The translations under genes were made by a program, and so were the position numbers. Positions 10,577 through 56,600 of a stretch of DNA of 64,000 nt are shown here, piece by piece. The notes beneath the pieces were generated by a model. That model was not told the origin of the DNA. It saw nothing but the letters and a program-made list of their open reading frames with translations, and searched no databases. This DNA is from Tetradesmus obliquus. Taxonomy: Eukaryota; Chlorophyta; Chlorophyceae; Sphaeropleales; Scenedesmaceae. Each line of letters starts with the position of its first letter. The stretch's first letter is position 1. The stretch covers positions 1,414,501 to 1,478,500 of the forward strand of contig CP126205.1 in assembly GCA_030272155.1 (NCBI GenBank), in the 5' to 3' direction.

Positions 10577-10621
<45 letters not shown>

Positions 10622-10965: not shown

Positions 10966-13152
10966 TGTACCAGTTGAAAAATTGTAGCAACTCCGGAATG
11001 CTACACTACCGCAGCCTGCGGCTCGATAACAGTGAAGTAACAGCCATGAGACACACCACATGCTGTAGTACAGCAGCCTTACCTGTGCTGTTGCCGGCAG
11101 CGCTCGAAGACCCCTGTCGACATGGTCCAGCACAGCCCTAAACTCCTCTCGTGTAAGCTTGTCCTGCCACTGCAGCAGCTGCCCGCCTGGCTGGCTGCTG
11201 CCGGGCGGGTGGGTGAGGCCAAACACTATGCCAGACACAACAGCTGCAAACCTGCATTCATAGGGACAGAGGTTCACCAAGTTGTCGTGTCAGTGCTGTT
11301 GTATGATTGTCTGTGCATAATCAGTGGCATACACAGCATTATTATCTATCATTGGTCAAGGCAGTGAGGACTTGAAGGCTGCTATGAATTGCATAACAGC
11401 CAAAGAGGACACAGAATCTCATGACAGCACATCACATCAGGGTATATTACAGCACGATGAGTCAGGGTGCCGCAAGGCCCCACCTGTTGCTGTGCGCCTG
11501 CAGGTAGTGCAAATGCTCATCGAGGCTGCTGTCCTGCCTGGCTGCAGCCTGCAGCAGCTCTTGCAGCTGCCGCAGCGACACGCGGCCATCCTACAACACG
11601 GGAGGCACAGCGCAGTTTGCTGCGTTGTACAGTAGCTAACACTTTTGAAGGTGGCAGGTCCACGCTGTAGAGAACAATTGGACACGGCTGCAACTAGCCG
11701 TTTACGAGAGGCGTTCGGCTACGTTTTATCCGTGTGCTGTGTTACATGCATAAGCATGCATGGCCGACTGGAAACGGCACTGCCAGTGTGGCAACTTGAC
11801 ACAGGTGGCGTCAGACGCAAATGAAACTTCTTACGCACGCACATTGTTCCTCATATGCCTGGTATAACAGCTCAATGGTCAGCAGCATAAACATAATGTA
11901 ACATAACACGTACCTTGTCCTCATCAGCCTGGTCAAACAGCTCATTAGTCAACTCCAGGGCGCTGGGGTAGTGGATGGTGGCGGCGTCACCACACGCAAA
12001 GATGCTGCCGTCGCTGCCCTTCACGCGCAAGTGGTCATCCGTGAACACACACCTGCACATTGCAGCAGCAGCAGCAGCAGCAGCAAGTTGCCCGCATTTG
12101 CTTGTGCACCCCTGCATTTGCTAGCGAGTGCTGTTGGCATATGTTAGAACACTATGCAACACAACACCATGCAAACTTTGAACCGTCTCCAACCCACCTT
12201 GAGTGCAGCCGCTGTTGCGGAAACAGCCCCTGTACCTGCTGCACCAGTGGGCTCTTGGCAATGCCAGCTGTTATATGACTATGTTACATAACACCATTTG
12301 AAACAAAAAAACCTTACCCACCTCGAGTGCAGCTGCTGCTGAGGAAAGAGCTCCTGCAGCTGCTGCACCAACGGGCCCTTGGCAATGCCAGTGGCCCACA
12401 CACACGTCCCAAAAGGCAGCCTCTTTTCCTCCCCATCCGGCCCTGCCAGTATGATCGCGCCCTCCTCCACTTTGACAACCTTGCTGTTGAGCACCAGTTC
12501 AGTTCCGCTCCGGCTGAGTTGCTTTGCAACAAACTCGCCGATCTTGCGGTCGTAGGAGTGCAGGATGTGGTCGGTGAGCTCTACCACGCGCACTTTCACA
12601 TCGGGCATCAAGCTAGGGTATAGGCCCTGCAAAATAAACGCCGACGGCAAAACCACAACATGGCAGTCAGTGTGTGTAATCAGGCTGCGCAAAGACGGAG
12701 TGCAGGATGTGGTCGTTGAGCTGCACAACGCGCACTGTCACATCGGGCATCAGGGCGGGGTGCAGGCTCTGCACCAAAATACAGGTCAGGCAGCCAGGCA
12801 GGTATTGAGAGTTATGCAAAATCAAAAGAAACCATCTTGCAATCGTACGTGTGCAGGATAAGGTCGGTGAGCTCCACCACGGGCACTGTCACATCAGGCA
12901 TCAGGGCGGGGTACAAGGCCTGCAGACAAAACCACAACCACAAAACCACAACATGCCGTCAGTGCGTCACCCTGCTGTTAGAAAAGAGTGCAGGATGTGG
13001 TCGGTGAGATCCTGCTGCTGCTGCTGCCGCCCACCTTGAGATCTTCATGGATGACGTCATGCAGCTCAGCCGCCACCTCAATGCCTGTGGGGCCGCCGCC
13101 CACCACCACAAATGACAGCAGCCGCTCTCGCTCAGCCTGGCTCACCTGGGGC

Positions 13153-13195
<43 letters not shown>

Positions 13196-13759
13196 ACAGC
13201 AGCATCAGGCCTGAGACAGCATTCACGGCATCCACAAAGAGCACGCCATGCAGCAGGCAGCATGATCACAGCAACCAGGCATCTAAGGGGACCCCCTGCC
13301 AAGCTGCCTTACTCATGGGCATCAAGTAATACGAAAATTTATCACAGCATCCGTTTACCGACACTGCAACATAAGTCAACTCAGGTCACTGCAGGTCAAC
13401 TCACGTAAGGAAGTGCTGCGCGCTCAAAGCAGTCGCTGAGCTGGCCCCTCAACTTGTGAGCGTCCTCAATCGTCTTGAACATCAGGCAGTGCTGCTCCAC
13501 GCCCTTCACACCAAAAGTGTTGTTCACGCTGCCCACCTGCACAGCGGCAGCAGCAGATAAAGCAGCATGCTGGGGTGATGCAGAAAGGAGTGCTGCAAGC
13601 GCTCCACAAGTTGCTGCTTCTGCTTTTGCTGCTGCTGCCACCGACACACTGAAACCACCTCCAGCAGGCCGTACTTGACTTTGGCTGTCTTGAACATGCT
13701 GCCGCTACTGGTGCTGCTGCGATTGGTGCCGCTGCTACAATTAAAGACGGCCTTCCACC

Positions 13760-13831
<72 letters not shown>

Positions 13832-15774
13832 AGCGCTACTCACCCCCACCACCAGCAGGTCATATTTTATCTGGAACGTCTTGGGGCTGCTGCTGCTGCC
13901 GTTGCTGGGGAAAGCGGCAATGAGCTCCTTGGTATCAGGGTTGATAGCCTGGCAGCTGGCCTCATAGTACTCGCCCTGCAGGAAAACATGTTATAAAAGA
14001 GTTCTTAAAATATGGTTACATGTTACTTGGTTTGACTTGTTACTAATACTGTGTGTTGCAAGGCGTGTGTTTGACCTGGGAAGGTGGCAGTCAGCTCCTT
14101 GGTGTCAGGGTTTTCAGCCTGGCAGCTGGCCTCATAGTACTCACCCTGCAAGGAGATTTATCACATCAGTTGTGTTCAAGATTGTTACAGCAAAGTTAAC
14201 GTGTTTGTTGTTGCCTGTGATATGTTTGTATTCAATGTTTCAACAAAGCAGCGCACCTTGCCCTTCACGAGCAGCCGCACAGGCTCGCAGATGCTGCACA
14301 CATGTTTATCCAACATTCCTTGTCTGTTGTATGTGTTGTGGTTCAGGACAAGGCCAGGCCCTATCACACACAGCAGCTGCAAACCTTATGAATACTATAT
14401 GCATGCAAATGTCAAAGGCATACCTTGCCCTTTACCAGCAGCCGCACAGGCTCGCAGATGCTGCCCTCCTCAACTGTGCCCACAGCCACTGCAGGCAGCA
14501 GCGGCGTGTACTGCAGCAGCAGCAGCGGCACCAGCAACGGCGGCGGCCGCGGCAGCGGCAGCGGCAGCAGCAGCGCCGGCGGCGGCGGCGGCAGCGGCAG
14601 CGGCAGCGGCAGCAGCAGCGCCGGCGGCGGCGGCGGCAGCGGCAGCGGCAGCAGCAGTAGCAGCAGCAGCGGCAGGAGACGCACACTGGATGTGATTGCT
14701 GCTTGCCATGTAGCCTTGGGTGTTGCAACATTCTGAAATGCCTGAAGGCACATGCATCTTGCTGAATTGACCCAGCACAGGCGCGCCAACCGCAAACATG
14801 TTATGGTGGAGCTGCAGTTTAGTAGGCTGCTGTTGACAGCAGGTTTGCTTTCTGCATTGCCTGTTTTGTTGTAACAGCTGCCGATGAACCTGGGCAAGCG
14901 CAAGAGAAACACCTCCCAATGCAGCTCACCAGGAAGTAGTTGCGGGGTGACACCACCACCACATCGTACTTCTCCCTGCACATCAGACAGCACACAGTTG
15001 GTGATTGCATTGTATTAGCATGGCGACCGCGCAATGCGCAGCCAGCCCTTGCACCTGACCCAAGAAACCGTACAGGTGAACACATGCTTCAATGATGCTA
15101 TGGTGCCGGGCAGCCGTGCCTACATGAGCAGCCCACCACTCGGAGTGCCAGGAGACTTTGGCGGGGGTCTTCTGGCTCAGCCTTGCTTGAAGGTGCGCAG
15201 CTGTGCATGACCAGCGTGCTTCGGCATCCTGGCTTTGTCTATATTCGTCATTTTACATGCTTCAAACACGTCAACAATGGGGAACCAATCAACTGCATAG
15301 AATCCGTTCAAAGCCATTGCACACTGCATGAGTAATAAAGCGGTACACTCACTGTATATCCTTAGGCAGTGCCTTCACCATGCTGCCCCAGCCAGAGCCC
15401 AGCACCACCACCACGGCTCCATGCCAAAGCAACACCCCGACATGCATGGAACTCCTCTGCATGCAACCCAGGGAAATCCAGAAGCAAATCACACGTGTAC
15501 AAATGCATGTGCTTCACACATGTCAGTAACACAACTGATAAACTGCATGAAATAATCACAAGGCGCTCACTGGATGTCCCTGGGCAGTGCTTTGACCAGG
15601 CTCATGCTGCCCCAACCCGAGCCCAGCACCACAACACGCGGCCTGTCCAGCGCAACAGTGCCGTCCAGCTGCCGCCGCACATTGTCATCTAGGGGACCGG
15701 CGGCAGATGATGCACGCGTGTCAGCTGGCTTGGTGACGGCTTCTGTGAGCTGCTTTCACAGCAGGCAGGATCGT

Positions 15775-15816
<42 letters not shown>

Positions 15817-15958
15817 TGGACCAGTAGCCGTGAGATTGCAGTCAGATTGCCGCAGTGTTCAGTGCAACTGTCACCGCACAGTGTCAAGTTGCCCTTGATT
15901 ACGGCCTTGATTACGGCCTCTGTGGAACTGGTCAGCTGCTGCCACAGCAGACAGGCCC

Positions 15959-15990
<32 letters not shown>

Positions 15991-16747: not shown

Positions 16748-17742
16748 TTGATCCAGGCATGTGCAAGAGGGTTATAGCTTCAATCACAGCTCTTAGTCCA
16801 GGATGACTACGGCAACGTGTACACGGGAACGGGACTACAAAACATGCAGTGCGGCGCCGATTTCATTGCATGAATGCAGGCAATCGCATATTGCAGCATC
16901 AAAGGCCTTCAGCACGCGCTGCTGCATCGTCTGGCACTATACACCAGTGATGACACGTGTCTAGTGAGCTGCCAGTGGCATGACGACTGACAAGCGTGGA
17001 GGCAGGTTTTTTGCCGTAAACCGCAACACAGCACCGTTCAGGTGCCAAACATGTGCCAGAACATCAATGCTGAAAGTAATCTGGTTGGTGTGTCACACCC
17101 ATGTCCACACCACGCTGCATGCTGCATCCACGCCCTTCCAAGGGCAGCAACTTCAACTGCTGCACCCCCGGTTCAACTCCTAGAACCCCCTGCCTCTGCC
17201 TGGGGCCGTACACTGCTGCACAGACGATACAGAACCACAACTATCTAGCTTATAATCAGACAAGAATGCCTGTTGGTACTAGCCCAGGCCCTGGCGCTCA
17301 CAGCAGCTGGATCAGCGCGCATGCAGCCACAACGCAGCAGCACAGCTAAACGTTGCCAGGAGTGCACGCTACACTCAATCGTCCAGTTCCACATTTCGTA
17401 TGCTTGCTCCAAACAACGCACTCATTTGATTGGCAAAATTGCATAAACTGCATGAACAGCTTGCCACGCTGGGCCTGCTGTAGCTGTCGCTGGCACCCCC
17501 CTTGCGCTCAAAGCGCTAGCAGTCCACATGCAGCGCAGTCCGTGTGCTGTTGACAGACAGATTGCAGTATGACATGTGCTATGTACAGCTGGATCAGCTG
17601 GCAGCCGATACACAGCAGTGCAACAGGCACAGCAACACTCAGCAACGAGCTGTGTGTCCAGTGCACCACCAAACAAGCATGCTTGTGGCAGGCAAGGACA
17701 CATTCACTCAATGACTCAGTTGAAAGCACAGCTGGCCCTGCC
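16748..17742. other. Intergenic: NDB upstream region and scramblase 3' flank
   Basis: The interval spans from the NDB start codon to the stop of the scramblase-like gene, so it should hold the NDB promoter. I see no gene in it. The only structured element is a degenerate copy of the last scramblase exon at 17473-17540, listed separately. Confidence 0.5.
17473..17540 (-). repeat. Degenerate copy of the scramblase terminal exon
   Basis: About 68 bp (AGCTGTCGCTGGCACC, CTTGCGCTCAAAGCG, AGTCCACATGCAGCGCAG) match 17743-17805, the coding end of the neighbouring gene. It lies about 260 bp beyond the gene's stop codon. The stop codon position is changed in the copy. Confidence 0.7.
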
Positions 17743-19886
17743 CTAACTGTCGCTGGCGCCGCCCTTGCGCTCGAAGAGCTGGTAGTCCACGTGCAGCAGC
17801 GCAGCCATCAGCAGCGCACGCTGCGCTGCGCTGGCCTCCTTCGGGAACTCCAGCACATAGTTGCTGCAAGGGAGAGGAACCAACAACCAGGCAGCAGCAG
17901 CGGCAGCAGCAGCAGCAGCAGCAGTGTAGGCAACACGGTCAGCGGTATGCAAACCCAGGCTAGCTGCATTGCTGCACATGCATCACAGTGCGTGTGGCCT
18001 CCTTGGGGACCTCCAGCACGTAGGTGCTGCAGCATGCGTGGTGCGACAACCAGGCGCCAGCAGCAGCAGCAGCAGCAGCCACCCAGCTGGTTGCCTGCAG
18101 TGTTGAAACTTGATCCAATTCGGCTAGCCGCACCTGAACATGGAGCTCATGCGGCAGAAGGCGCTGCAGTCCGAGCTAGGCGCATACAGCTTCCTGATGG
18201 TTGCTACGGCCTGGCCCTGCACAGTGGCAACACCAAGGGTTGCTTGGCTAAGCGGGCGAGGCAGTCAGCCACCGTCACAGCCGGCCGTCGTCATGGCATG
18301 CAGAGCAGCAGCTACTTGCAAGAACGGAACGTGTTGCAGGGGATGCACCACACTTTGGCATGGCGTGTTGCAGGGGATGCAGCACACTTTGGCATGGCGT
18401 GTTGGCACGTCTTGCACAAGGTTCAGTTTGTTTCTGCAGCTCTGCTCAGCTTTACACGCAGAGCGGGTCACTGCAGCAGCAACCACGTGGCATGCACCAC
18501 AAAAAAACGCAGATAATGGCCTATAAGGTGCTGCTAAGTCACCTGCTGGTCCAGAACATCAATCATCAGCTCCTCATTGCAGCACACAGAACTTGGTGAC
18601 TATGGCAGAACAGCATGAGGCTGCGCAACACATACACACAGCGCAAAAGGCCCCAAAGAGCGCCGTTGGTCACCTGCTGGTCCAGCACATCAATCATTAG
18701 CTCCTCATTGCAGCAGGTTGCACCGCAGCAGTTGTTGCGGCGGCCGCCGCAGCAGCACAGCCACGTCTTAAGGCTGAACCTGTGCTGCAGCTCGCGGCCA
18801 GGCGACTGCTGCTGCTCGTACACCCGTGTGTGATACACGCAGCGGCAGAAGTTGTCGACACACCTGCAGCACCAGCAGTGCAGGTGACAGTGTGAGAAGG
18901 TGACACATTTATTTCTGAGTGGCGCTGGTACAATAGCAGTTACAAAGTAAGCGCCAACAGGCGCTGTGAACAACATTCACAAACCACCATAATCTAACAA
19001 ACGCCACAAAACATCAGGCCAAGGCCTTACCCAAAGTCTTCCACAGCTTTACCAAGCACCGCATCCTGCTGCATTACTGTCGTCTCGAGGGGACAGCCGC
19101 AGCAGCCGCCCAGCCGGAATGGCCGCTGCGCAGTGAGCCGCTCGGCTCCGCGCTCTGCACAACAAAATTGCAACATCTAACATCAGTTGTACACCCAGCT
19201 GCTGCATCCCACAATAATCAACACAGCAGTGGAATGCAGACCAGAACCATGGCTGATGTAGCCTTATGTGAGAGGGCGCCTGTTGACACCATGACAATTG
19301 TTTCAAAGCGCGCACTTGTGCAGTACAGCTGCAGCGGCCGCAGCTGCATCCAGCCCAGGTCAGCATCATGTCTGGTGTGACAGGTGTGCAAGCAGCTCGT
19401 GCAGACAGTGAGTCGTTGCGCAAGATGTCTACCAGTGAAGTGCAGCTGCAGCGGTTGTTGCGCAAGATGTCTACCAGTGAAGTGCAGCTGCAGCGGCCTC
19501 AAATGTAGCCGGCCCAGGCAGGTCAGCCTTCATGGCTGATGTGACATGCCATGTTCGGTACATAAAGCTGTAGACACAAAAAATTGTCTACCTGTGAAGT
19601 GCAGCTGCAGCGGCCGCAGGTGCAGCCATCCCAGGCATGTGAGTGCGATGCGGCCCCACAGCGAGGAGGCCTCCTCCACACGCATCAGCTCAGGCAGCGC
19701 ATCCAGCTGCGCTGCTGTGGGCATCCACGAGCCTGCAGGAAGAAAGCGTGGGCATGTCGTTGCAGAGAAAGCATGATGACACCAACAGCAGCAGCAGCAG
19801 CTGCAGCAAAGCATCAGCTCAGGCAGCGCATCCAGTAACGCTGCTGTAGGCATCCACGAGCCTGCATGTTTGTTCGTTGGCAGGGG

Positions 19887-19931
<45 letters not shown>

Positions 19932-20705
19932 CATAACGCAGGATGAGCACTTCATGGTTGTAGGCCAGGCAGCAGCAGTCCGCTATGCATACTTAGGGTC
20001 AGGCAATGGGAGCAGCCTGGTTCCTGCAAGCCAGCGGCTGCAAGGAGCTTGCATGGGGGTGCAGGCATGGGCATGGAAGCATTAGGGTGCTGTCTAGATC
20101 CATCAACAAGTCCTGCAAGTGGCCAGGGCATTGCAAAACGGGTGCAGCAAGAGCACGCAGCAGCAGTGGTGGCGATAGCTGCAGACACTGCAAAATCAGG
20201 TGTGCATGTACACTGGAAGCGAGCTGTGATTAAGCTGACAGCCATGGGTGTGAGTGCTCCGCAGCGGCCGTTGCATCATGCAACTTGCATGTGGTGCAGC
20301 TGCCTATGGCCTGCCCACCTGCTGCCTGTACATCGTCAGGTAGTGCTGCCATTTTGTACTTGTTGACAGACTCGTATGGCACGGCAAAGGCTTGCGCAAT
20401 GACCTCAGCCCACTGCGACTGCTGGCGGATCACCACTGCTGGCAACGCCTCTAGGTCAGTTGTCATTGACTGCAGCAGCGGGAAGTCAAACAAGATGCGA
20501 TCCCATAGCAGCTTGCCTGCAGGATTGCCATTCTGTAGTGTTTAATGTGTGGCAGATTCACATCGCGGGGTCGGTGTTTGACTTTGGCGTGCAAGATGGA
20601 CAGCGAAACAGCAACTGCTCAACAGCGCTGGCAGTATGCTGCTCTGCACCTCACCTGCAGCAGCGGTGCCTCCATAGCGCTGCTGCCCATACTTCCCAGC
20701 TCCAT
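17743..20705 (-). CDS. Phospholipid scramblase-like protein
   Basis: Seven exons: 20655-20705, 20319-20511, 19592-19732, 19031-19154, 18674-18863, 18134-18216, 17743-17863. They sum to 301 codons with phase kept. The order of features fits the scramblase/LURP-one beta-barrel family: GSWMPTAAQLDALPEL, then ERLTAQRPFRLGGCCGCPLE, a Cys-rich block (CVDNFCRCVYH, WLCCCGGRRNNCCGATCC), and a C-terminal NYVLEFPKEASAAQRALLMA with LLHVDYQLFE. Scramblases move phospholipids between bilayer leaflets or bind membranes, and the Cys clusters are likely acylation sites. The C-terminal helix is less hydrophobic than in animal PLSCRs. The start (MELGSMGSSAMEAPLLQ) is the first Met in phase but is tentative. Joining it to exon 2 needs an AAG acceptor. 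Four introns carry exon-edge copies. Confidence 0.72.
17998..18032 (-). repeat. Copy of the 5' edge of the scramblase last exon
   Basis: GCCTCCTTGGGGACCTCCAG and CACGTAGGTGCTGCAGCA match 17834-17870 at the acceptor edge of exon 17743-17863. The CTGCA acceptor signature is kept, 164 bp into the intron. Confidence 0.75.
18538..18583 (-). repeat. Copy of the 3' edge of scramblase exon 18674-18863
   Basis: Forty-five bases starting TCACCTGCTGGTCCAGAACA are nearly identical (about two mismatches) to 18670-18715. The copy keeps the donor CAG/GTGAC and codes the same CNEELMIDVLDQQ. Confidence 0.9.
19330..19500 (-). repeat. Three copies of the 3' edge of scramblase exon 19592-19732
   Basis: The sequence GAAGTGCAGCTGCAGCGG of the true exon end (19596-19615) recurs at about 19436-19455 and 19476-19495, each preceded by a perfect repeat of CAAGATGTCTACCAGTGAAG. 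A more diverged form lies at about 19322-19365. The two close copies are a 40 bp direct tandem repeat. Confidence 0.8.
19811..19864 (-). repeat. Copy of the 5' edge of scramblase exon 19592-19732
   Basis: GCATCAGCTCAGGCAGCGCA, TCCAGTAACGCTGCTGTAGG and CATCCACGAGCCTGCA match 19682-19737 with few changes, including the acceptor. Confidence 0.85.
19888..19930. repeat. (CAG)~13 microsatellite
   Basis: An uninterrupted CAG tract on the plus strand inside the scramblase intron upstream of exon 19592-19732. Confidence 0.9.
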
Positions 20706-21428: not shown

Positions 21429-23864
21429 TTACTGAGCACCGCCGCGGCCGAAGCCACCGCCACCGCCGAACTGGGGCTGGTATGCGCCAGGGGCAGAGGC
21501 CTGCAGGAACAAGAAAGCAGCAGTAACAGCAGATGTCACAAGGCAGCATGAGATGCTTGAACACTAGCCAGCAACAATAGTGTTGCACAGCAGCAACTCC
21601 TGCGCCATGCTGTGCACTCTCCTGCTAGGCAGAGCATTGTGTAGCAGCTGCTACTCCATCACTGTACAGCATGAGACTGCCTGCCTCGCATCCACTATGG
21701 TCAAACATTGGTCAAACACTGGTCAAACATGCCACGTCAGCCGGCTCACCTTGTCGCCACCGCGGTCGCCACCACGGCCGAAGCCGCCACCCTCACGGGG
21801 GCCGCTCCTGTAGCCCTCCCTGCAGCAGCAGCCAGGGCATACAGATGCACAGCTGTCAGTTGCAACCCTGTCAACAGGCCAAAGCAATTGCATCTCCAGG
21901 CCCAGCTGCTGTAAGTAGTAGCACCTACGGGCCCCGCCGACGAATCAACGTGCAGCACAGGAAGCTGGCCCAAACAAAAATAAACATCATATGACGATCA
22001 TCTGCCCAGCCCACCTGTAGCCGCCCTCCCTTGGTGGGCCGCGTGGGGGCCTGTCACCGCCCATAGGCATTAAAAGCACTGACATTCACGCAACAACTTG
22101 CAGAACAGAAAACAGGTTTTAGGTTTCAGGCTTGAATAATTTAGCGCACCTGTAGCCTCCCTCCCTGGGTGGGCCGCGCGGGGGCCTGTCACCGCCCATG
22201 GGTGGGCGGCGGCCCTCGCCAGCGGGGCGCGCGCTCTTCTTCAGAGTGGCGGGCACCACGTCAGCAGGCAGGTTGAGGTACTCGCGCAGGTACTCGATGC
22301 CCTTGTTGGTCAGGAACCTGAAGCATTACCGTTGAAATTGACAGGTCGGCAGCCGCAGCAGCAGCAGCAGGAGGAATTGCATAGATTAGCGGGCAGGTTG
22401 AGGTACTCGCGCAAGTACTCAATGCCCTTGTTGGTCAGGAACCTAAACAAGAAGCAGCAGCAGCGGGAGGATCAATCGAAGCGATGGTAGCGGACTAGAA
22501 CAGCTGGGGACAACAGGAGGCAGCCGTGCTTGACACAGGCACCATTTGCAGGAGACAATAGCGCATGCCTAGGCAGTTGCATCACGCGCGCATGCATATG
22601 AGCGTGCGACCAAGCTGCAGAAGCACAGGCATGCGCCTGCGGCTGGGAAGGACGAGATTATGCTCAAACAATGATAGCAGTCACTCCACTGCAGCACTGC
22701 GGCTGGTCTGTTGCGTGCTGCCTCAGCGCTGCACTGCAATGCTGCAGACTGTCAACACATGCAGCTGGTTCAAAAATAGTCTGCGTCACGACATCTGCAG
22801 ACCAGCATATGCCACGACACAGCTTGTGTGCTCTGGTGCCAACAATCACCCAAACGAATGTCTGGGTGCCGCTGCTTGCTGCAAGCTGCTGCGCAGCTGC
22901 CGCTGCTGGCACAGGTTGCCTGTAGCAGCTGCAGACCAAACGCGGCGCCATTGCTATGAGCCGTGGCCCCTGCCTCCCCCAAAAGTGCTGCTGCTGCTGC
23001 TGCTGCATGCTGGCCTCCAGCGGTACGCGCCATGCGCTGACTGCTCCCTGGCTGCTTTTCAGCAGCTGCTTGCCTCTTGCGCTGCTCTCACAAGTGGTGT
23101 GTCCTCCAGGCGAAGCACTGAGTGCGCTACACCATGCTGCTGCTTGCTGCTGGCCTCACCAGCAGTGCCTCCAGGCAGAGCGCCCATTGAGCTACACCCT
23201 GCTGTGGACACCTTGCCACTGCTGCTGCTGCTGCCCTGACAGAAGCAGTGCTCCTACAGCTGCAGCAGCTGGCCTCACCAGTGGTAGTGCCTCTAGGCGA
23301 AGCGTTCGTTGAGCAGCTCCTTGCTCACACGCATGCACTCACATGCTGTCATCAAGGACTGTAAGCAAGAGCTCCACCTCCTCCTGCTGCTGCTGCTGCT
23401 GTTGCTGCTGGGCTCACCAGTACTGGTGCCTCCAGGCAAAGCGGCCATTGCGCTAGCCACTACTGTGCAACACCATGCCGCCACTGCTGCTGCTGTTGTC
23501 GGACTGTGACAGTAGCAGTGCTCACCAGTAGTAGTGCCTCCAGGCGAAGCGCTCGGTGACGAGCTCCTTGCTCTTGAAGCTCTGCATGAGCTTGATCACG
23601 TGCAGGTTGGGCACCTCCACCTCGGGGTGCTGCTCCAGGTTGAAGTCCTTCTCAGCCTGCAGCACGCCCTCTGCAGCACGCAACATGGAACAGCAGCATA
23701 TGTATGAAATATTAATGTGCGTTGGTTGATGATTTTGTTGTGCGTGAGGTGAGACAGGTGGGAGCGCAGCGAAGCGAAGGGCTGCTTGCTGTGGTGTTGC
23801 TGCTGCACTCACCCTTGAAGAGGTACTTGTACACCTCCCTACGGTTCTTCTTTGGGATGAGCAT
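21429..23864 (-). CDS. RPS10: 40S ribosomal protein eS10
   Basis: A component of the small cytosolic ribosomal subunit, placed in the head region. Five exons: 23813-23864, 23526-23670, 22150-22317, 21750-21819, 21429-21500. They total 169 codons with intact phase, giving 168 residues, normal for the family. It begins [19 protein letters not shown] and contains [25 protein letters not shown], then [20 protein letters not shown] and VPATLKK. The tail is Arg/Gly/Pro-rich ([14 protein letters not shown]) and ends GGFGRGGAQ, as in other eS10 proteins. Intron 2 (about 1.2 kb, 22318-23525) holds four decayed copies of the exon 2 end and one copy of the exon 3 start. Intron 3 holds a copy of the exon 3 end. 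The gene is divergent from the translocator gene at 24307. Confidence 0.95.
22012..22071 (-). repeat. Copy of the 3' edge of eS10 exon 3 with donor
   Basis: CCCACCTGTAGCCGCCCTCC, then GGTGGGCCGCG and GGGGGCCTGTCACCGCCCAT, match 22144-22200 with few changes. It codes [17 protein letters not shown]-like sequence and keeps a GTGGG donor. Confidence 0.9.
22388..22446 (-). repeat. Copy of the 5' edge of eS10 exon 3 with acceptor
   Basis: GGCAGGTTGAGGTACTCGCG and CCCTTGTTGGTCAGGAACCT match 22266-22319 with about two changes. The copy keeps an acceptor (coding sense TTTAG/GTTCCTG) and the reading frame [17 protein letters not shown]. Confidence 0.9.
23086..23452 (-). repeat. Array of four decayed copies of the eS10 exon 2 end
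   Basis: Copies at about 23086-23128, 23154-23192, 23272-23330 and 23411-23452 all share a CTCACnAG...GTGnCTC(C/T)AGGC core with the true exon end (23521-23560: CTCACCAGTAGTAGTGCCTC, CAGGCGAAGCG). Each keeps a GTGAG donor on the coding strand. CTG runs lie between copies. The third copy is longest and extends through GAGCAGCTCCTTGCTC. Confidence 0.85.
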
Positions 23865-24306: not shown

Positions 24307-27300
24307 ATGGAGACTAGAAAGTATTTGGCAGCCTACGGGTGAGCCGGGGTTTCAAACCGCACAAGTGTGCCGGGATGTGCCAGCATGCTGCTGTTGATGT
24401 CGACCACTGTGCTGCTGCCCGCAGGTACATGGCACTATGGATCTTTCTGAGTGCCTTCGTCATCATGTAAGTGCCGTTATTACATTCCAGCAATGAACGT
24501 GACTCCCTGCAGACGTGTGCGCAGCATTAGCGCAGTTGCAGTGCTGTCAGCTCAGTTGAGTCAAAAAGTTGCAACACACTCTGGAATCAGGCCTGCCAAA
24601 ATGGCATCAGCTGACATACTGTAGCTGTGGAAGCAGCATGTTACTGCCACAAAGCCAGTCAGCAGCGACTGCTGGCACGTGCTGGAGCTGTTCAACTGAC
24701 AGCCATGGCCTAGCAGTTTGCTTGCCCCCACCTTTGCAAACCATGCCAGTGACTCCACAGCCAAATGGGATTGTGACAGCACAAGATAGAACAGTACAGG
24801 ATATGCCGCAGCAGCAGCAACTACCCCGCTTACTGCGTGGCTGAGCATCATCAACTTGCAGGATTTGCAAATTGCCCCTTTTTCCCTTGCATGCAGGCTG
24901 AACAAGTATATCCTGGATCCGAAGCTAGGCGGCTTCCCCTTCCCACTGACTCTGACAGCAGCACACATGCTGTTCTGCGCGGTGGTGTCGTGGCTGCTGG
25001 TCAAAGTCAAACTCATTGACGCACCGGCAATGCCCAGTGAGGTGTACTTCAGGTGCGGCCTGCTGCTGTCACTTACATGATATGTGTGAGGCCTGTGCTT
25101 TGTATCCAAGCAGCAACAGCGTGCAGCAGCGCGCAGCAGCGGCAGGCCTTAAGAACATGTGCTTGCATGAAACTCGTGCATACAGTTGAAGGCCCCCTTC
25201 GTCAGAGCCAGCGAGGAACCCGGCACCATTCATAAGAGCAGCTGCTTGCGCTGCAGATGTGCTTCGACTGCCTGTGGCAACAGACCGTGCCATTACATTG
25301 CGTGATAGGAGGGCTACTGATCAGCAAGGTTGGTGTTGATGCCTGCTGCTGATGCTGCTGTATGCAGATGTGTGCTGCCCATTGGTGCGCTGTTTGCAGT
25401 GGTGCTGTGGACGGGCAACGCGGCTTACTTGTACCTCAGCGTCTCATTTGTACAGATGATGAAGGTGCGGGAGGGTCGAGGGCTGCAGGTTGCACAGCAG
25501 GCATGCAGTGGACGTTGCTGTGCTTGAGCTTACTTGTACCTCAGCGTCTCGTTTGTACAGATGATGAAGGGGCAAGGCGAGGGAAGGAGGCAGGGAGGGT
25601 GCACAGCAGGCATGCAGTGGACGTTGCTGTGCTTGTTGAGCTCGCATACTATCAATAGTTCAACGCAGCTCACTGGCGTGATGAGGTGCATGACTGGTCG
25701 CAGTTGGAATCAGTTGGGCATGCGCAAAGTGTTGCTGGCGGCGAAACAGCACCATCACAGAGGATGCAATCCGCCTTCGTTTGCGACACATCTGTTTATG
25801 AACACATCTGGCGCTTGACGCGTGTGTGTGATCATTCCAACTACAAGTGCAATTGGTGGCTGCTGCAGGCGATGATGCCGCTCCTGGTTTACACAGTAGG
25901 AGCGGTGTTTGGCACGGAGAAGTGGTGTGTGCGCACAGGCATCGACTTTGCAACATCCACTTGCTGACACAACTGTGACTGCTGTGGATGTTGCAGGCGA
26001 TGATGCCGCTCCTAGTGTATACAGTAGGCACAGCATTTGGCACGGAGAAGTGGTGTGTGCGCACAGGCATCAACCTTGCAGTGGTGGTGGCTGGAGTGGC
26101 CATCGCCAGCTATGGTGAGTTGTTTTGTAATGGTTTCTGCCTATCAAATCCAAGCAGAGATAAGAAGTAACACATATGCTTTGGCTAACGCAGCGTGACA
26201 AGTGCTTGTAGCTAGCTGCCGGACCAGCAGGGATAGCACCGCAGCGTGCAGGAATGCGGCAAAGCTTGCTTGCAGGAAAGGCTGCAGCAGCAGAAACCAG
26301 CTGCAACTGCACCCAGAGTTTCATGAAGCTCTGGCCTGCAGGCATGCCTAGCTTGTTTGCTGCTGCAGCTGTGTCCAACATGCCGTTCATCTGCTATTGA
26401 AGATGATGATAATGATGATATGATGCTGCTTGCTGTCTGCAGGCGAGGTTGTGTTTGTGCTGGTGGGGGCGGCCTTCCAGGCCGTCAGCATGCTATCAGA
26501 AGCAACGCGGCTGACACTGGTGCAGGTGGGATGGGCTTGCAGGAACTGCCTTGTCCTGCAAGTTGTTTGTTCTTGCAATCAAACGTGACATGATCATCCT
26601 CAAACCAGCTATCAACAGTCCTTGCTGGCTGCCCTGAGTAACTGTGTCAGTGCATGCCCGTTTATTGCAACATGCGGTCTGAGATAGCAGAAACAAGCCT
26701 CTTTCCCTGCTGCTGCCGTTGCTGCTGTTGTGTGCTCCTGTCCTGCAGTTGCTCCTGCAAGGGCGCGGCATCAAGCTCAATCCCATCACAACCCTATACC
26801 ACGTGGCACCTGTGTGCCTCATGTTTTTGGTGCTGCCATTTGCATGGTTAGAAGCAGAGCGCTTGATGAGCCAAGAGTGGAAAGTGGGGCCTGGCCTGCT
26901 GCTGCTGAGTGCAGCCGCAGCCTTTGCGCTCAACTGCTCGATATTCCTGCTGATAGGCAAGACCAGCGCGTTGACGCTGAACATCGCGGGGGTGGCAAAG
27001 GACGTGATGCTGATCTACCTGTCAATGACGCTCTACGGGTGCACTGCTGGAATTCTGGCCGACTGTCACAGCTCTTAGCTAGGCTAGTTTGTGTGGCAGA
27101 AAGTGCAGCACACATTGGCTGTACTGCAGTACTGCTTTTCAGCGCAAGGAGATTTGCGGCTGTCTGGTGTTGGAAAGCTGCGTACCTCGTAGGCAGGCAG
27201 CTGCTGTGCTGGTGCTGCATGCATTGCCTCTCCATCTGATGCCAGCAGCAGCGTGTTCATGCGCATTGTCACAGTGCATCACATGCACTCACGTGTGCGC

Positions 27301-27610: not shown

Positions 27611-27654
27611 TACGTTGGTTTTACACTGTGTGGTAAATGTTGGTGCACCAAGTT

Positions 27655-27659
27655 TGTAA
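27655..27659 (+). terminator. Candidate TGTAA poly(A) signal for the translocator gene
   Basis: TGTAA lies 45 bp downstream of the stop codon, the expected position for the green-algal polyadenylation signal. Confidence 0.55.
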
Positions 27660-27760
27660 CATCCCTAACTGCTTATGCAATCAAACCATAGCAACAACAC
27701 CGTCAGCGCTGCACCCCACTCGCCACTCGGTTGGCTACAGCTGCCCAGGTTAGCCTGACT

Positions 27761-27840: not shown

Positions 27841-28106
27841 CAGCTTGCTGTGATGATGACCAGCTGTGAATGCTTGTCTCCATGCCTTCCAAGCCGGCAT
27901 GCTGCACTTGTCTCCATGGCACCATGTACATAAGACGATTTTAAGCATGGTAAAAGCATAGCTGCGCACCTTCAAGCAATGCTGATCCAGAAGCCCCCCG
28001 CCCTAGGGCTCCTGGCGCTCTGAGTGGGCTGAGCATGCAGGCACAGCAGTCATCGCTGCTCGGAGCATGATGCCCAACCGATGCCCAACCACGGTAGGGG
28101 GTGTGC

Positions 28107-28111: not shown

Positions 28112-28141
28112 AAGTTAAGCTTCACTGTCTTTTTATTGTCA

Positions 28142-42465: not shown

Positions 42466-42503
<38 letters not shown>

Positions 42504-45500: not shown

Positions 45501-48500
45501 GTACAGCTCCTTATAGCCCTGGATAAAGCTCAAATAGCTGCGCGGTGTGACATACACGTGCCTCCTGAACTTCTCAAAGTACTCTTTGCAGGCTGCTGTC
45601 ACGTACACATGCACGTGGCCCATCATCAACTTCAGCTTGGACTTGACGTCTTCGCCGCAGGCCATCGGGAACTCATCAATGAACTTGCCAGACACTGCAA
45701 ATGTGAGAATGGGCACAGCCGGGGCAGGAATGCACATGGTAAGTGACACAGCAGAACCGCAACCGACAATAGCTCTGCTGCAGGCCCAGTACATGATCAC
45801 TGCACCCCATCACAGTCCTTGTGTTGACTGCACATTCTGCAGCCAGGTAAACACTCCACACTCGCACCTGAAGTAAGCGCTTCTTCTGGCCACGGCAGGA
45901 ACCAATCAATCGTGCAGCCGTTAATAAGGCCAGGGAACTGCATCGCGCGCCGCGCAAACTTGTCGCCGACGGGGCTGAAGCACAGCATGACGTGCAGGTT
46001 GTCGCGCACGCGGTTGAGGAAGAACGAGTACAGGTTGTCCCAGGTGTCTGGCACGCCCGGCTGTGCTGCCTTCATGACGGGCCGGATGTCGTTGATGATC
46101 ATATCCAGCTCCTCCTTAGGCAGCAAGCCTGAGCAAAAAAGAAATACAGCAGATGGTGCGGCACATGCACGTTTAAGTAACACCAGAGCCGACTGATACC
46201 AGTGCATGTGAAGCACAGGAATACTACTTAACACACATGCCAGAGACACTAAAAAGTGCAGCCAGGTACGCCAGCAACCCACGCATACACAGATGATGCA
46301 GAGCTTTCTTGAAATGCCAAAGCGATGCGCACCTGCCACCTCTCCTGTCATCAGGATCTGGTTGATGTACTCCAGGAAAGCCTCATCCTTCACCTCAGCA
46401 TCAGTGAAGATGAAGCACACCGGCTGGCCCTTGAAGCCCGCAATCTTGTACAAGGCCTTGATGTCCTCAAACAGGTTGGTGACACTGTACGTCTGCACAC
46501 GTACACACATACAGCAGCAGCAGCAGCAGCAGCAGTGCAGTTGTTGCTACACTGTTGTGCTAGTTTTCTACTACACTGCTATGTTGATATCTGTACTGCT
46601 TTTATACAGCTGCCTCATTGGCTGGCCACACATACACAGCAATGCCGTGACGGCGTAACTGTTAGGTGCAGGGCCAGAAGCAGCAAGACAACCAAGAGCT
46701 GCACTGCTCGGACACTTGCCTTTGTGACAGTGATCTGGAAGGTGTAGGCGCCGTTGATGTAAGCGGCAAGGCGCGCCAAGCTCTGCTTGCCACTGCCACC
46801 CACGCCAACCAGCAGTGCACTGCCGCGCGCCATAGCCATCAGGCGGCTGATGCGCATCAGGTGCAGCAGCGCATCTGTGAACAGCACCAGGTTCAGCTTC
46901 ATGACCTGCAGCAGGCAGCAGCAAACACGCCAGTGTTGTAAAACTATAAAGGACCAGACATATCAGGCATTGCTCTCCTGTGACAAGCGCAACACGCCTA
47001 CACAACTTGCAGCTACACTGGCACAAGACAACTGCAGCGCATGCAAACTGCACGCACTGGGATGCATGCCCAGCATCCAAACAGCGCTGCCACACCTTGC
47101 TCTCCTCATTGAAGCGGCGCTGCAGGGCCTCCACGCGCGACCGGATCTCCGGCAGTCCCCCGGGCACCGCCTCGTAGTTGGAGGGGTGGGCCTCAATGAC
47201 CTCGCCGGTCTCCGCATCCACCACGGGCTCACGCAGGAAGTCCACAAAGTACAGCGGCTCGTCAACCTGCCAGCAGCAGCAGCAGCATTGACACCAACCA
47301 CGCATTGATCGTGTGTTGCGGTGCAAACGTTGATCCAAGTATATAAAACAAAAGCAAATGCAGCAAGCATGGGGTCTGCTGTTTTGTGCAGCCGCGCACC
47401 TGCTTGCAGAGTTCTGGCGGGAACTCCTGCCTGCACAGGTCGCTGATGGCCTTGTCCACCCAGCCCTTGTCCTCGTGGCTGACCAGCTTGTCGGCAAACA
47501 CGCGGCGGCACTCGTGCACCCACAGGCCCAGCAGGTAGCCCTCTGGGGTGGTGACGCCACCAACATACGACTTTCGTGGGTCAGCACCGCCTGGCGTGGC
47601 AAACCTGCAGCATGCGTCCCATATACAACACCACACATTGGTGAGCAGCTAGTTGTGCAGGGCATGTGCACCAGAAGGCCCAACAGGTAGCCCTCGGGGC
47701 TGCTCACACCCCCAGCGTAGGACTTTGGTGGGTCGGCACCGCCCGGCGTGGCAAACCTGCAGCAAAAACAACAGGAACATACACATTGGGTAGCAGCTAG
47801 CTGTGCAGGGCATGCGCACCAGAAGGCCTAGCAGGTGGCCCTCGGGACTGCTCACGCCCCCAGAGTAAGACTTCGGCGGCTGGGCACTGCCCTGCGTGGC
47901 AAACCTGTATCATATTAAACATTAGCCAAGTTCCTATGGCTTAAACGGTAACATGATGATGATGATTAGCCAAGTTGGAAGCAACCAAGAAGCGATGATG
48001 GGTCTGCACACAGCCGGTGCGTTGCCTGGCAGCATTGCATGAAGACATTTTGGCCGCGCCCACCTGTCCCTTGTGGCCAGCATGACTCCCTGGAACACCT
48101 TGCTGAGCTCCCTCATGTTGAACAGGTAGTGGAACTTGGCAGGCGTGGGCAGCATCTTGGCCTGGGTCTTGTTCCACAGCATGACCGTCATGGGCACCAG
48201 CCGGTCAGCAACCTAGGTGGGGTGGTGTGGCGCAAGGTTGCAGCAAGAGCAGGCAGCAGCAGGCAGCAACATAGAATGTTTGTGTTGCTTTGACCCAGCC
48301 ACAGCACGGCTGTTGGCAGCCTAAGCGGCATTGTCGACAGCATACAGGCGATGCAACCGCAGAGCACCTAGAAGCAACCTGGCAATGCACCGCAGGACAC
48401 CTAAAAGCAACCCAGCACGTGCCCAGGGGTCCATGCAGTGGCCCTGCACATACAGACATACTGTCAGCATGTCAGCCGCACAAACACATACACACAAGCC

Positions 48501-51500: not shown

Positions 51501-53619
51501 CGCCACCGCTGGGGCCAACCAGCATGATGCCGTGGCGCACCTGTTACATAACACATGTTGCATAAAGCAAAGCGCATCGGCAAGTCGCTACTAGTTTCTA
51601 GTGCATGCACATCACCTGCACACTGAACAAGTTCAAGGATGCTGCTTGTGTAACTGCATAGTGAGTCATGCTGCAGCTCCTGCCTGCACTTGTTCTACTC
51701 TACACCCACAAGCTGCATTGCTCACCAGGTAAGTCTCATACAGCTGGATGCACTTGTTGAGCCAGTTCTGGTGCAGCTGCAGCCCGCGGTCTGTGGCAAC
51801 CTTCTCCAGCGCCCGCGACACGTCAGGGAACTGCGCACGGTCTGCCTTGAGGCCTGCAAACACAACACAAACACCATCGTTGTGAGGCATATCATTTGCA
51901 GCGGCAGCACACGAAGGAGACAGAGCTGAATGCAACAGCATGCGCAGGCATACGGGGGCTTATGCTGCACACATAGCTAGGTCCTGTTCTATATGACAGC
52001 TTACCAGGGAACAAATCGTCAATCAGGCTCAGGAAGAGCGGCACATCCTCGGCAATGTACTTGCTCATGTTCATGTCGCGCAGCGTGCGCATCATGAGGT
52101 ACACCTGCAGCAGCACAGCACAGCACAGCAGCAGATTCAACATGGTTGGCCACTATGCCACACCGCGAGAGGGACACTCTTACAGATGTCTGTAGTGCGC
52201 GTGCAGGACAGCGGCTTGCACCCACCTCGCTCTTGTCGGGGTTTGCGCGCTTGGAGGCGCCCGCAGTGCGCAGCACGCTGAGGATGTTGCGCAGACCGAA
52301 GTCGTAGTGCGCCTGCTTGGACAGCTGCTGCTCGCACAGCCCGTACAGCACGAAGAACTTCTTGGACAGGATGTCGTTCTCCTGGTAGCCGCAGGCCGCC
52401 AGCTTCACCTGCAGCCAGCAAATTGTCACATGCACAGGGCAGCGGCTGTAAGGTCAGCTGCTGCCACATAACTGCTGCACCACCACCATTGCCTCTTGGT
52501 AGCTGCAGGCAGCTAGCTTAATTTGCAGCCAGCACATTGGCGCCACAGACGAGGCAGCAGCTCGGCGGTCACATGCGGACCTGGCATGCATCGTGGTGAC
52601 CCAACGCAACTGCGTTGTGTTTGGTGTCCATCTGCTGCATGCTGCTCTTGCTAAGTGTGCATGCACCTCCACACAACACTTCACCCACAAGTGTGGCACC
52701 CCACCTTGATGATGATCTGCCGGTTGGGCACCATCATCGTGACACCCCTAAACACCGCCTTGAGGTTCTCCGGCAGCTCCTGCCGCCCGGCATAGCCGGG
52801 GTTCATGGTGATGAAGAAGCCCACGCGAGGGTCCAGGCTCACTGTGCTGCCGTCAGTGAACACAAAGGACTTCTTGCGCTCGCGGATGGCACTGAGCACG
52901 CAGTAGATCTGCACAGCACGCACGGCACGCAAGCAGCAGGGGCGGAGTTCGCAACAGGTAGTTTAGACGTTCAACCAGGTTTTTGTTCATCACAATCTGA
53001 CCATCACCATGACTGCATGAAGCACGCCCAGTGCAGGACGGTGAGCCATTCCTAGCTCCAAGCACAGCACACTGCCCAGCCGATGCCCACCTGCTGTGCG
53101 CAGACCGACAGCACGTCCAGGTTGATGCGGTTGAACTCGTCAAAGCAGCCCCACAGGCCGCTCTGTGCGAGGCCCTTGTAGATCTTGCCCATGCCCTTGT
53201 AGTCCATCTGGTCGCTGCAGTTGAACACCACCACGTACCTGCACGCAGAGATACAGCAGCAGTACAGCGCAGCAACACTAGCGTTGCAGCACTTGCAAGT
53301 GGAAGAACAGCCATTGCATGTTGGCGCCACAGTCAGAGTCAATGAGCACCTGCACTTGAAGGAGAAACCAAGCCCTGCAGCCGTGCTTGCAGCACCTGCT
53401 GCAGCACACATCGCATAGTGCCTTGCTCGAAAACGCCAGACGAAGCAAACAGGCATTGGTGACACCTGCAGGCATACTACAAGCAGCCTGCAGCTCGCAG
53501 CTGTAGAGTCCTAGGCAGTGCTCACTTTCCGAGCGTGTTGCCCAGGTCCTTGGTGGTCTCTGTCTTGCCAGTACCAGCAGGGCCAGCAGGTGCACCACCC
53601 AGGAACATGCCCAGCGCCT

Positions 53620-53655
<36 letters not shown>

Positions 53656-56600
53656 GCACCTTACAATAATTCAGTACATTTGTCACCCAACAAGCAGATT
53701 GGTGAAAACAGCCTGCACCAGCCAATGGCTGCCTTGCAGCTGCAGCCATACAGACAGGCGCGCAGATGGGTTCACTAGGCGGTACTGTTGGATCTTTGCA
53801 CACTGCCCACAGTGACAGCGCGGTGTAGAACACGTTTGTCAGCGACATGATGATCAGCCGCTCCTTCAGCTGTACTGCAAACGGCATCTGCACCTTGTGC
53901 GCTGTGGTTCCATGCAGCTGCACCTAAGCACATGATTGCTCAGACATGATGCTGCAACGCCTGCCCACCTGTGACAGCGTGATGTAGCACACGTCCGTAA
54001 GCGGCGTGATGACCAGCCGCTCCCTAAACCCCATAATTCCACAAACTGCAGCATGTGCACCTTGCATGCTGTGGCTCCATGCAGCTGCATCTACACACAT
54101 GTGTGCTTGGATGGAATGCTGCTACGCATGCCCACCTGTGACAGCGTGATGTAGCACACGTCTGTCAGCGGCGTGATGACCAGGCGCTCCTTGACGCCCA
54201 GGTACTCGTAGCTGTACTCAGAGTCCACGTCGCAGATGGAGATGATGGTGGTGTCCTTGTCGTCGCGCCAGTAGAAGCGCACCTGCTTGAGCCACTCAAA
54301 GTCCGTGGGATCGCGCACCTGCAGGGGGCAGCGCATTGTGCAGGCCATTGTCAGGCTGTTGTGCACTACCGTGGTGACACGCTCCACGCATGTACTGCAG
54401 TGGATACAAACAGACTAGCTGCATGGATGAAACTGTGCAGGGGCTCCAATGCAGCACCGCACGTACCTTCTTGCGGATCAGGTCCTCCGTGGACTCCTTT
54501 TGGTGCATGTGCACAGTGATGCATGTCTCCAGGTTGGTACGCTGGATGCGCGTGAGGTCTGTGCGCAGCGTGAACATGACCATGTCGCGCAGAAGCGCGT
54601 CCGTCTTCTTCATGTTGCGGCCCATCACAGTCTTGTCAGTCTTGGCATTTGTCAGCGCCGTCTGCACAGCAACAGCAAGAAGTGGTAAGAACCGCTGCAT
54701 CGCAACTCCAGACACATAGAGTGGCACGGTGAACACTGCAACAACTAGCAGCACATGTGCATCAGATGGCCTGCTGCACAGCTCCAGCTTTGAGATTGTA
54801 GCAGGCACCCTTGCATATACATACAACAGCAGCAGCTGACCTGCGTGTCGGCTGTCCACTGGTACTGGATGCCCAGCAGCGCAATCTGTGCTGGGTGGCC
54901 GAAGATGAAGTCCTCCAGCCCCATCTCATACACGTTGCGCACTGCACGCCTGATGACCTGCACAGCAACGCACAATGCTACAAAGCTGAGACAGAGAAAA
55001 GGTTGAGGGTGCCAGTCATTTGTGAGCAGTGCGGAAGTCTGCAACACATGCACCAGGCTGAGACTGTAGTGCTGGCTTGCCAATGACGTAAAAAAACCCG
55101 CACCTGCTTCACGGTGTCCTGCATGCCGTCAACCAGGCGCTGCAGCCAGACTTCGATGTTGCCCTTGGCGTCCACCGGCTTCTCAAACTCCACCTGTACC
55201 AGCACATACATTTGCAGCTCAGCATGCTGCTGCAAGGACTTTCACGCATGTGCTGTTGCCGTCAGCAAGGCGGACTGGCATGTCAACACACAAAGGTGTA
55301 CAGCCCAACAGGATGCGTGGCGTGCAGGTGTGGTGTGAGCAAGGTGGCAAGGTGCCAGACCACATTTGTGGTGGTTGCAGTGCAGATCGCGGCATTGGTT
55401 CCCTGCCCACCTTTTCGCCCTGCTGGCTGAACATTTCCAGCATGCGCGTCTTGTCTGCCTTGTCAAAGGTGACGTTGCTGAGGCTGTCAAACAGGCCGGA
55501 CTGGAAGTGCGGCACCACGCTGGGTGGATCGCTGCCCAGGGACAGGATCTCCAGCAGGGTAGGGTCGGACACAAAGTAGAACCTGGCAAACAGCAGGAGA
55601 GATGGCAGTTGATTGTCCAGTACACCAAGTGAAGCGAAGCTGACGCAGTGTTGCCCAGCCATGTTGCTGCTTGACTCAAACTGCAAGCCCTGAGTCGCAA
55701 ACAAGGCAAGCTCAGCTGGCGCACCTAGGGAACTCCGCACGCTTTGTCTCCAGGTACGCGCTGAGGCTCTTCTGGCAGAGCTCTAACTGCTCGAGCAGGT
55801 GTGGCAGCATGTTCTTCATCAGCTCACTGCCGGCACACGTGGCCACCACATTGGGGTTCTCAATGGCAGACGTGACAATCTGCAGAGAACAGAAAGCAAG
55901 AAAGCAACAGGCACGGGCAAGCAGGATCTGTTTCAGCAGCAGTGGTGAAGTCGTAGACAGTTGATGTTGCACAGACAAGATGCAGCTCAGACAAGCATGG
56001 CACTCACTTGGCGGTGCACACCATGTACTGCAGCAGCTGATGCAGCCTTCAACCATCCTGCAGACCAAAACAAGTCCAACCACTTCTAACCGCACCTTCA
56101 TGTAGTTCTTGTCTATGTTCTGGAAGCGCTTGGCCTCCAGTGGCAGCTGCTTGACGATGTCACCGCCTGAGAAGACAGCCTCCATGTACATCCACATGTT
56201 CTGCACCATCAGCCACTGCTCGATGATCTCCGACACTGTGCTCAGCTTCATGATCCAGCCCTGCACCTGCTCCCTGAAGGGCGTGCTGTACCTGCAGCCA
56301 TGAAGTCACGATGCGGTGATCCGGCAGCCAACACAGCAGATTGAGTCAGGGATAATTTTGCATTGTGCACAGCTGCTGCTTGATGTTTGCATTTGCGCTA
56401 CAAGAAGCACCAAGCAAATCATGCCAAACACTGCCAGCTACTGCAGGAAACTGCTGTGCATAGCCTGTTTGTGCCAAAAACCGCACCTGTTGGTGGCCAT
56501 GCTTCCCAGCTGCATCTGGCTGTCCTCCTGCTTCTCGATCAATTCAGCAGTGTCGCTGGGCTTCAGGATGACAGGCCCGCGTGTCTTGTAGTCAGCAAAG

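Follow-up and report, generated by a model that had tools for sequence, protein, structure and literature searches.

Copies of exon edges in introns of the window

We analyzed a 64,000-nucleotide stretch of the genome of the green alga Tetradesmus obliquus (contig CP126205.1, positions 1,414,501 to 1,478,500, or G000:C15:1414501-1478500 in our own coordinates), which we call the window. The genome assembly comprises 104.66 Mb in 17 contigs, with a GC content of 0.57. Among the genes in the window are NDB (type II NADH dehydrogenase-like), a scramblase-like gene, eS10, a translocator-like gene, and an outer-arm gamma dynein. We found 17 loci, on both strands, where the intron contains copies of the edge of the adjoining exon along with its splice site, with 2-5 copies at each locus. 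These results confirm a first-pass annotation of the window, which had counted about 18 such loci and had reported that donor edges are duplicated as well as acceptor edges; both kinds are present among the 17. Our preferred explanation, to which we assign a probability of roughly 0.7, is ordinary head-to-tail duplication in which the units measure about 130 bp and the introns about 200 bp, with the copy contiguous with the exon being kept while the others decay.

We compared the window to itself by two methods. With blastn, we found 29 direct pairs that were less than 3 kb apart, and no inverted pairs within 3 kb at E < 1e-3. An independent ungapped scan of the diagonals found 28 nearby segments, which we grouped into 20 arrays; the same scan at offsets of 6.0-6.6 kb found no segments. 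An automatic pass placed 13 of the 20 arrays at exons (an overlap with a gene-model exon of at least 15 nt), and reading by hand placed another three at exon edges (12192-12391, 25423-25635, and 25856-26080). The remaining four were short repeats (at 18330, 27761, and 29420) or, at 25487, the second half of the array at 25423. One additional edge locus (15348-15635) was detected only by a gapped search.

Our gene models are from a simple hidden Markov model (HMM) gene finder, trained on 56 Pfam-matched pieces of dynein exons. The HMM converged on donors of CAG/GTGAG and acceptors of TGCAG/GT (the slash marks the splice junction), with a median intron of 197 bp. As a check, an 809-residue stretch of the window's dynein matches the outer-arm gamma dynein of Chlamydomonas (7kzm_C) over 809 residues. 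The gene finder merges adjacent genes and proposes some of the extra copies ("decoys") as exons. We removed these by hand, using the rule that the copy contiguous with the body of the exon is the true copy; where decoys are modelled as exons, a single locus may be counted at two junctions. Pfam and PDB back the product names for NDB (Pyr_redox_2), the scramblase (Scramblase), eS10 (S10_plectin), and the dynein (outer-arm gamma). The translocator piece had no match in a Pfam search, and its name comes from reading the translation.

The 17 loci are listed below (window positions; periods and shifts in bp; percentages compare the copies).

12192..12391, minus strand: donor edge in NDB, 2 copies with a period of 124, 86% over 76 nt, each ending in a GAG/GTGGGT-like donor (the HMM donor differs, and the assignment is from reading the open frame)
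12541..12955, minus strand: acceptor edge in NDB, 3 copies with periods of 142 and 151, found by both self-comparison and diagonal scan; changes polarised
13908..14150, minus strand: NDB acceptor edge, 2 copies, period 170, 88% over 73 nt from tgcag/
14255..14464, minus strand: NDB donor edge, 2 copies, period 167, 95% over 43 nt up to /gt; the copies differ by 2 synonymous and 0 nonsynonymous changes
15348..15635, minus strand: donor edge, 2 copies, period ~218, gapped search only (78.6% over 70 nt, score 69, donor at 15570)
17468..17797, minus strand: donor edge in the scramblase-like gene (Pfam Scramblase), 2 copies, period 263; the decoy's GT is lost
18538..18715, minus strand: donor edge in the scramblase-like gene, 2 copies, period 131, 96% over 47 nt
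19314..19643, minus strand: donor edge, 4 copies, shifts of 117, 159, and 276
19682..19866, minus strand: acceptor edge, 2 copies, period 129, 93% over 56 nt from tgcag/
22008..22202, minus strand: eS10 donor edge or extra exon, 2 copies, period 135, 92% over 60 nt; 4 synonymous and 0 nonsynonymous differences
22263..22447, minus strand: eS10 acceptor edge, 2 copies, period 125, 93% over 60 nt; 3 synonymous and 0 nonsynonymous differences
23076..23575, minus strand: eS10 donor edge, 4-5 diverged copies (S10_plectin exon 23526-23670; repeat families D14 and D16)
25423..25635, plus strand: donor edge in the translocator-like gene, 2 copies, period 105; a 14-residue peptide is readable in each copy
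25856..26080, plus strand: acceptor edge in the translocator-like gene, 2 copies, period 128, 88% over 97 nt; an 11-residue peptide is readable in each copy
47514..47907, minus strand: acceptor edge in the AAA4 region of the gamma dynein, 3 copies with periods of 152 and 148 and 111 nt of similar intron flank
52379..52539, minus strand: acceptor edge in the gamma dynein, 2 copies with a period of 114; the decoy's AG is lost
53803..54192, minus strand: donor edge in the AAA1 region of the gamma dynein, 3 copies with shifts of 167 and 326; 37 decoy residues are absent from 7kzm_C

The eS10 pair at 22008 and 22143 lies in a repetitive tail that is rich in arginine and glycine, and it may be a real extra exon. 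Elsewhere in the window, a 95-bp inverted pair with 82% identity (15113-15206 and 27956-28047, 12.8 kb apart) is a dispersed repeat. Long GCA/CAG trinucleotide runs are numerous, mostly outside the dynein gene (10577-10643, 13761-13831, 15775-15815, 19888-19931, and others). Open frames of 1090 codons (1778-5050, minus strand) and 879 codons (30600-33239, minus strand) had no Pfam match.

Anatomy of the arrays and their occurrence in the genome

Across all of the regions that we considered, the distance to the nearest copy has a median of 132 bp (quartiles of 114-162, 5-95% range of 42-266, n = 119); the first-pass annotation had given a unit length of about 60-260 bp. Shifts between copies have no preferred frame (17, 14, and 17 of 48 for the three remainders modulo 3). 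Similarity of the intron flank could be tested in 37 pairs, and 27 of them have it at the position predicted for head-to-tail duplication. In the alignments that we examined, copies are edges with a single splice site (GT or AG), rather than whole exons, and many decoys retain their GT or AG. A possible exception is L036 (G000:C17:678001-684000), in which bases ~230-740 contain tandem units of ~197 bp that are 99.5% alike, each with a predicted exon. The array may be very young, or the gene may encode a repeat protein. Among 11 near-complete duplications, we set aside four with more copies or with simple-repeat ends. In the seven that we took as two-copy cases, the homology at the ends was 8, 5, 0, 7, 7, 1, and 4 bp, which hints at microhomology, but no more than that.

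As a control for chance similarity, we compared each exon edge plus 15 nt of intron to its own 700 nt on the intron side, with a score cutoff of 60. There were matches at 14 of 84 junctions in the other genes of the window, 7 of 154 in the window's dynein, and 49 of 129 at ten arbitrary places in the genome (where the gene models are unchecked); the count for seven other dyneins, elsewhere in the genome, was 0 of 849. Against other introns, there were 0 matches in 1325 comparisons for the other window genes and 0 in 2450 for the window's dynein, and the rate was 0.0011 of 16463 for the seven dyneins and 0.0032 of 2214 for the ten places. The reverse-complement control gave one match at the ten places and none in the other three sets.

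The ten arbitrary places were 6 kb each and were picked by hand, without a random generator; one includes 1500 masked bases. They contain 18 duplicated loci in 60 kb, and four of the places have none. The seven other dyneins have 7 duplicated loci in 190 kb. We also analyzed twelve non-flagellar (housekeeping) genes, which span 28.2 kb: ten proteasome genes, D1 protease (joined pieces are identical to PDB 1fc7 at 193/193 positions), and part of CCT-alpha. These contain 23 arrays, with 39 extra copies of the edge type and 2 others. The stretch of CCT-alpha alone has five edge arrays, with copy numbers of 4, 4, 3, 4, and 4. Four of its seven exon edges have an array, and another array precedes an exon that is outside the stretch analyzed; its first two exons have no arrays. 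In one CCT-alpha intron, four copies of the donor edge lie opposite three copies of the acceptor edge. More broadly, in CCT and tRNA-synthetase genes, a profile search (without reading the letters) matched the same stretch of the profile successively, for example at these positions:

C16:4172823, 4172969, and 4173109: successive matches to the same profile
C13:3960174, 3960378, and 3960592: successive matches to the same profile

The first-pass annotation had described an ongoing process at many positions. This description holds up, but the distribution is uneven, given 0 of 849 junctions in the seven dyneins. A dynein on C8 (L049, G000:C8:5441150-5442900) has eight copies of an acceptor edge, most of them spaced by exactly 139 bp and about 95% alike. 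This array is young and homogeneous.

We considered whether the arrays might be assembly artefacts. Two dynein heavy-chain copies (C1:5557676 and C1:5653886, 96,210 bp apart) have identical profile scores. Either a large tandem duplication took place very recently or the assembly is at fault here, so a large duplication, whether real or artefactual, is present in the assembly. Most copies within an array are 5-20% different from one another and take in intron sequence as well, and such copies occur in many genes that are not linked; we give the artefact explanation almost no weight. A scan of viral contigs with the gamma dynein found no relative.

Which copy is functional

The copy contiguous with the exon had been claimed to be the functional one, and the twelve housekeeping genes bear this out: in 19 of the 23 arrays exactly one copy lies on a true exon, in four no copy does, and in none do two. 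The four arrays that lack a true-exon copy are in L038 (one) and L048 (three). For the cct5 array (in L048), its own exon probably lies beyond the stretch that we fetched.

These counts also bear on a model of intron birth (the Rogers model), in which an array would be a new intron that formed by duplication of an exonic AGGT segment. Junctions are indeed AGGT-like, with CAG/GT at 169 of 433 acceptors and 222 of 433 donors in dyneins. The model predicts copies in both flanking exons, which is seen in 0 of 23 arrays; instead, the arrays extend an intron and its own flank. This model is already disfavoured, and we consider it extremely improbable. The acceptors that read CAG/GT (169 of 433 predicted introns in seven dyneins) are of interest in another way: a copy of such an acceptor could double as a donor motif and might permit recursive splicing.

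We aligned two genes, with their decoys retained, to orthologues. The gamma dynein matches 7kzm_C at 1749-1809 and then at 1808-1887, with 37 decoy residues unmatched. Similarly, CCT-alpha with its decoys aligns to its orthologue at 66-122 and then at 122-178, and the decoys have no counterpart. The claim that introns are being lengthened is supported. The further claim of locus-specific tandem duplication is supported by the direct orientation of all nearby pairs, by the similar flanks in 27 of 37 pairs, and by the lack of decoys in both orthologues.

To compare constraint between the copies, we polarised the changes in 12 arrays that have at least three copies. (All four cct5 copies were entered as decoys.) Changes confined to a single decoy were 38 synonymous and 58 nonsynonymous (60%); the synonymous share expected under neutrality is 0.279. 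For the contiguous copy, the changes that it alone has were 26 synonymous and 8 nonsynonymous. The decoys appear to decay near-neutrally, while the contiguous copy is constrained. Without polarising, 41 pairs (which are not independent) gave 118.5 synonymous to 85.5 nonsynonymous changes, and this synonymous share exceeds the 0.43 that we expected for neutral decoys. The pooled pairs suggested constrained decoys, which the polarised changes did not fully bear out; weak constraint on the decoys is possible. We think that the synonymous excess in the decoys arose because decoys that were captured at different times record synonymous changes in the exon.

Alternatively, the copies could be functional alternative exon edges that were selected for isoforms or for regulated splicing. 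The synonymous excess, both pooled (118.5:85.5) and in decoy-only changes (38:58, p = 0.009), would fit this, as would the GT or AG that many decoys retain. Against it, 60% of decoy-only changes are nonsynonymous, the decoys are missing from two orthologues, shifts divisible by three are not preferred, and most copies are partial, with one splice site. We consider selection for alternative edges to be very unlikely.

Geometry, targeting, and the uneven spread among genes

We observed that the copies are laid out in tandem, that constraint is polarised between them, that two orthologues lack them, and that many genes have them. Head-to-tail duplication probably accounts for these observations, as follows. 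Short units, mostly of 115-160 bp, would be duplicated at a high rate in many genes, perhaps by microhomology-mediated slippage. If introns were about 200 bp before duplication, then the duplications that are neutral for the mRNA would mostly straddle one exon-intron junction, which would bring an exon edge and its splice site into the intron. Duplications within exons would presumably be purged. The copy that is joined to the exon would remain functional, which implies that the spliceosome must use the outermost donor and acceptor, and the remaining copies would decay almost neutrally. Further slippage or unequal exchange may then enlarge the arrays.

Several observations weigh against head-to-tail duplication of this kind. 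The intron flanks are dissimilar in 10 of the 37 pairs, including one pair whose 43-nt exon part is free of differences, and the first copy of the C8 array begins abruptly at its acceptor. The decoys have more synonymous changes than the neutral share (p = 0.009), and there are 8 nonsynonymous changes on the presumed true copy (3 in NDB, 4 in the AAA4 region of dynein, and 1 in a proteasome gene). Edge arrays are more frequent than the simulations described below would give, with binomial p = 0.003 and 0.010 (for 21 of 23 and 18 of 20 arrays, respectively) against an expected share of 0.64, or p = 0.020 and 0.043 against 0.71. Finally, the absence of copies at 849 junctions of the seven other dyneins is not explained by this mechanism.

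To ask how often edges would be duplicated without any targeting, we simulated uniform tandem duplication (135 ± 35 bp) of genes with 150-bp exons and 200-bp introns, and accepted only the events that were neutral for the mRNA. At least 20 nt of exon edge was carried by 63-66% of the simulated events, or by 42% if introns were 400 bp. In other words, most tolerated duplications carry an exon edge because the units are about 130 bp and the introns about 200 bp. In the twelve housekeeping genes, the observed share was 21 of 23 arrays, or 18 of 20 with gapped detection. Against an expected share of 0.78, the p values are 0.09 and 0.15. (The shares of 0.71 and 0.78 are rough corrections for the poorer detectability of intron-only pairs; starting introns that were longer than those simulated would call for the opposite correction.) That exon edges are themselves the target was not borne out as stated: geometry mostly accounts for the edge pattern, with a mild excess remaining. 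A moderate preference of duplication for junctions is possible.

Duplication might instead be aimed at the junctions of transcribed genes, via pausing of the polymerase or the spliceosome, R-loops, or transcription-replication conflict at splice sites. Besides the excess of edge arrays over the geometric share, this would fit the way in which arrays are unevenly spread over the genes. In the housekeeping genes, arrays occur at no fewer than 13 of 72 internal junctions (not counting the outer edges of terminal exons), which is far above 0 of 849 in the seven dyneins. These two counts come from different detectors; the array detector used for the housekeeping genes, when applied to the seven dyneins, found one extra copy of the edge type in 190 kb. 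No duplication was present in a radial-spoke gene for which 9 exons are predicted. In a profile survey, the median ratio of gene span to coding length was 2.1 for 14 dynein, radial-spoke, and tektin genes, versus 3.8 for 26 CCT, proteasome, and synthetase genes (p = 5e-5). (We took only the span ratios from this survey, as overlaps between profile matches also catch matches that run into introns.) The two groups of genes would be expected to differ in vegetative expression.

Any rule based on expression is loose, however, because two dyneins (gamma and C8) have arrays and four of the ten proteasome genes have none. Third-position G+C, which is a weak proxy for expression, did not separate genes with arrays from genes without, and the edge bias mostly follows from geometry. 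Overall, we view aiming at junctions as unlikely. The number of arrays per proteasome gene (0, 0, 0, 0, 1, 2, 2, 3, 3, and 4) might suggest two classes of genes, but these counts are only mildly overdispersed (variance/mean of about 1.5, by hand arithmetic). Masked simple repeats make up 0.3-1.6% of the seven dynein regions and up to 8% of proteasome genes. A broader proposal is that, in genes transcribed in the vegetative cell, the exon-intron junctions are themselves hotspots where tandem duplication is coupled to transcription or splicing. Such a process would build introns from serial copies of their borders, would largely spare genes that are silent in the non-flagellate vegetative cell, and would be a main engine of intron lengthening. 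We regard this proposal as doubtful.

Known systems and the length of introns

Tandem genomic duplication is an established source of new introns (PMC3443670; PMC4974935; PMC2891723). Intron gain by tandem duplication (PMC3443670, and in potato, PMC4974935) resembles our arrays in that a head-to-tail duplication takes splice signals along and the mRNA can still be read; in potato, the duplicated stretch also crosses an intron-exon boundary. In those cases a new intron forms in a former exon, whereas in the alga, existing introns are lengthened, with decoys inside them, repeatedly and in many genes. Internal gene duplication (Gao & Lynch 2009, as described in papers that cite it) likewise duplicates internal segments with splice sites, but the algal units are sub-exon edges of about 130 bp, and the process is serial and protein-neutral. 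In Drosophila, intron sliding and exon duplication also copy coding sequence in tandem at a proto-splice site, and the intron's position is shifted or new (PMC2891723); in the alga, the position is kept and the copies accumulate within the intron.

Other comparisons are to repeats and to mobile introns. The arrays resemble intragenic minisatellites in being head-to-tail with units above 10 bp (here 40-280 bp), including at least one young homogeneous array (period 139). They differ in that the algal unit contains an exon edge and a splice site and that one of the copies serves as a working exon. Algal introns also gain sequence from introners. Introner copies are common to many unrelated loci, while the edge copies are locus-specific, as had been claimed: the scan at far offsets had 0 matches, and a search for a second genomic place for the 441-bp dynein array, which scored only the best candidates, found none. 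Tandem exon duplication and mutually exclusive exons involve a whole exon with both splice sites, while the algal copies in the alignments examined are edges with one (L036 may be an exception).

Searches of the open-licence literature listed no description of recurrent exon-edge arrays in introns. What is new is the dense, repeated lengthening of existing introns by exon-edge copies; the kind of mutation was already known. The reason for the long introns of Chlamydomonas and its relatives was described as unknown (PMC8226300), and the mean intron of T. obliquus is 462 bp, versus 230-302 bp in three other Sphaeropleales (PMC5966456). Exon-edge arrays are a candidate cause of the long introns in T. 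obliquus. In the twelve genes, 34 extra copies of about 130 bp would amount to about a quarter of the 16.0 kb of intron, although this is a rough estimate and some copies lie outside the counted introns.

The arrays show a mutational source of intron length in progress: it is possible to count its increments, to order them by age, and to polarise them against an exon that is under constraint. The 139-bp array in the C8 dynein is well suited to a test for polymorphism. The uneven spread among genes is the most interesting part. The arrays also pose a puzzle for splicing: in the CCT-alpha intron, the correct intron is the longest one, and splicing by intron definition is not expected to pick the longest. 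Exon definition in a compact genome becomes directly testable.

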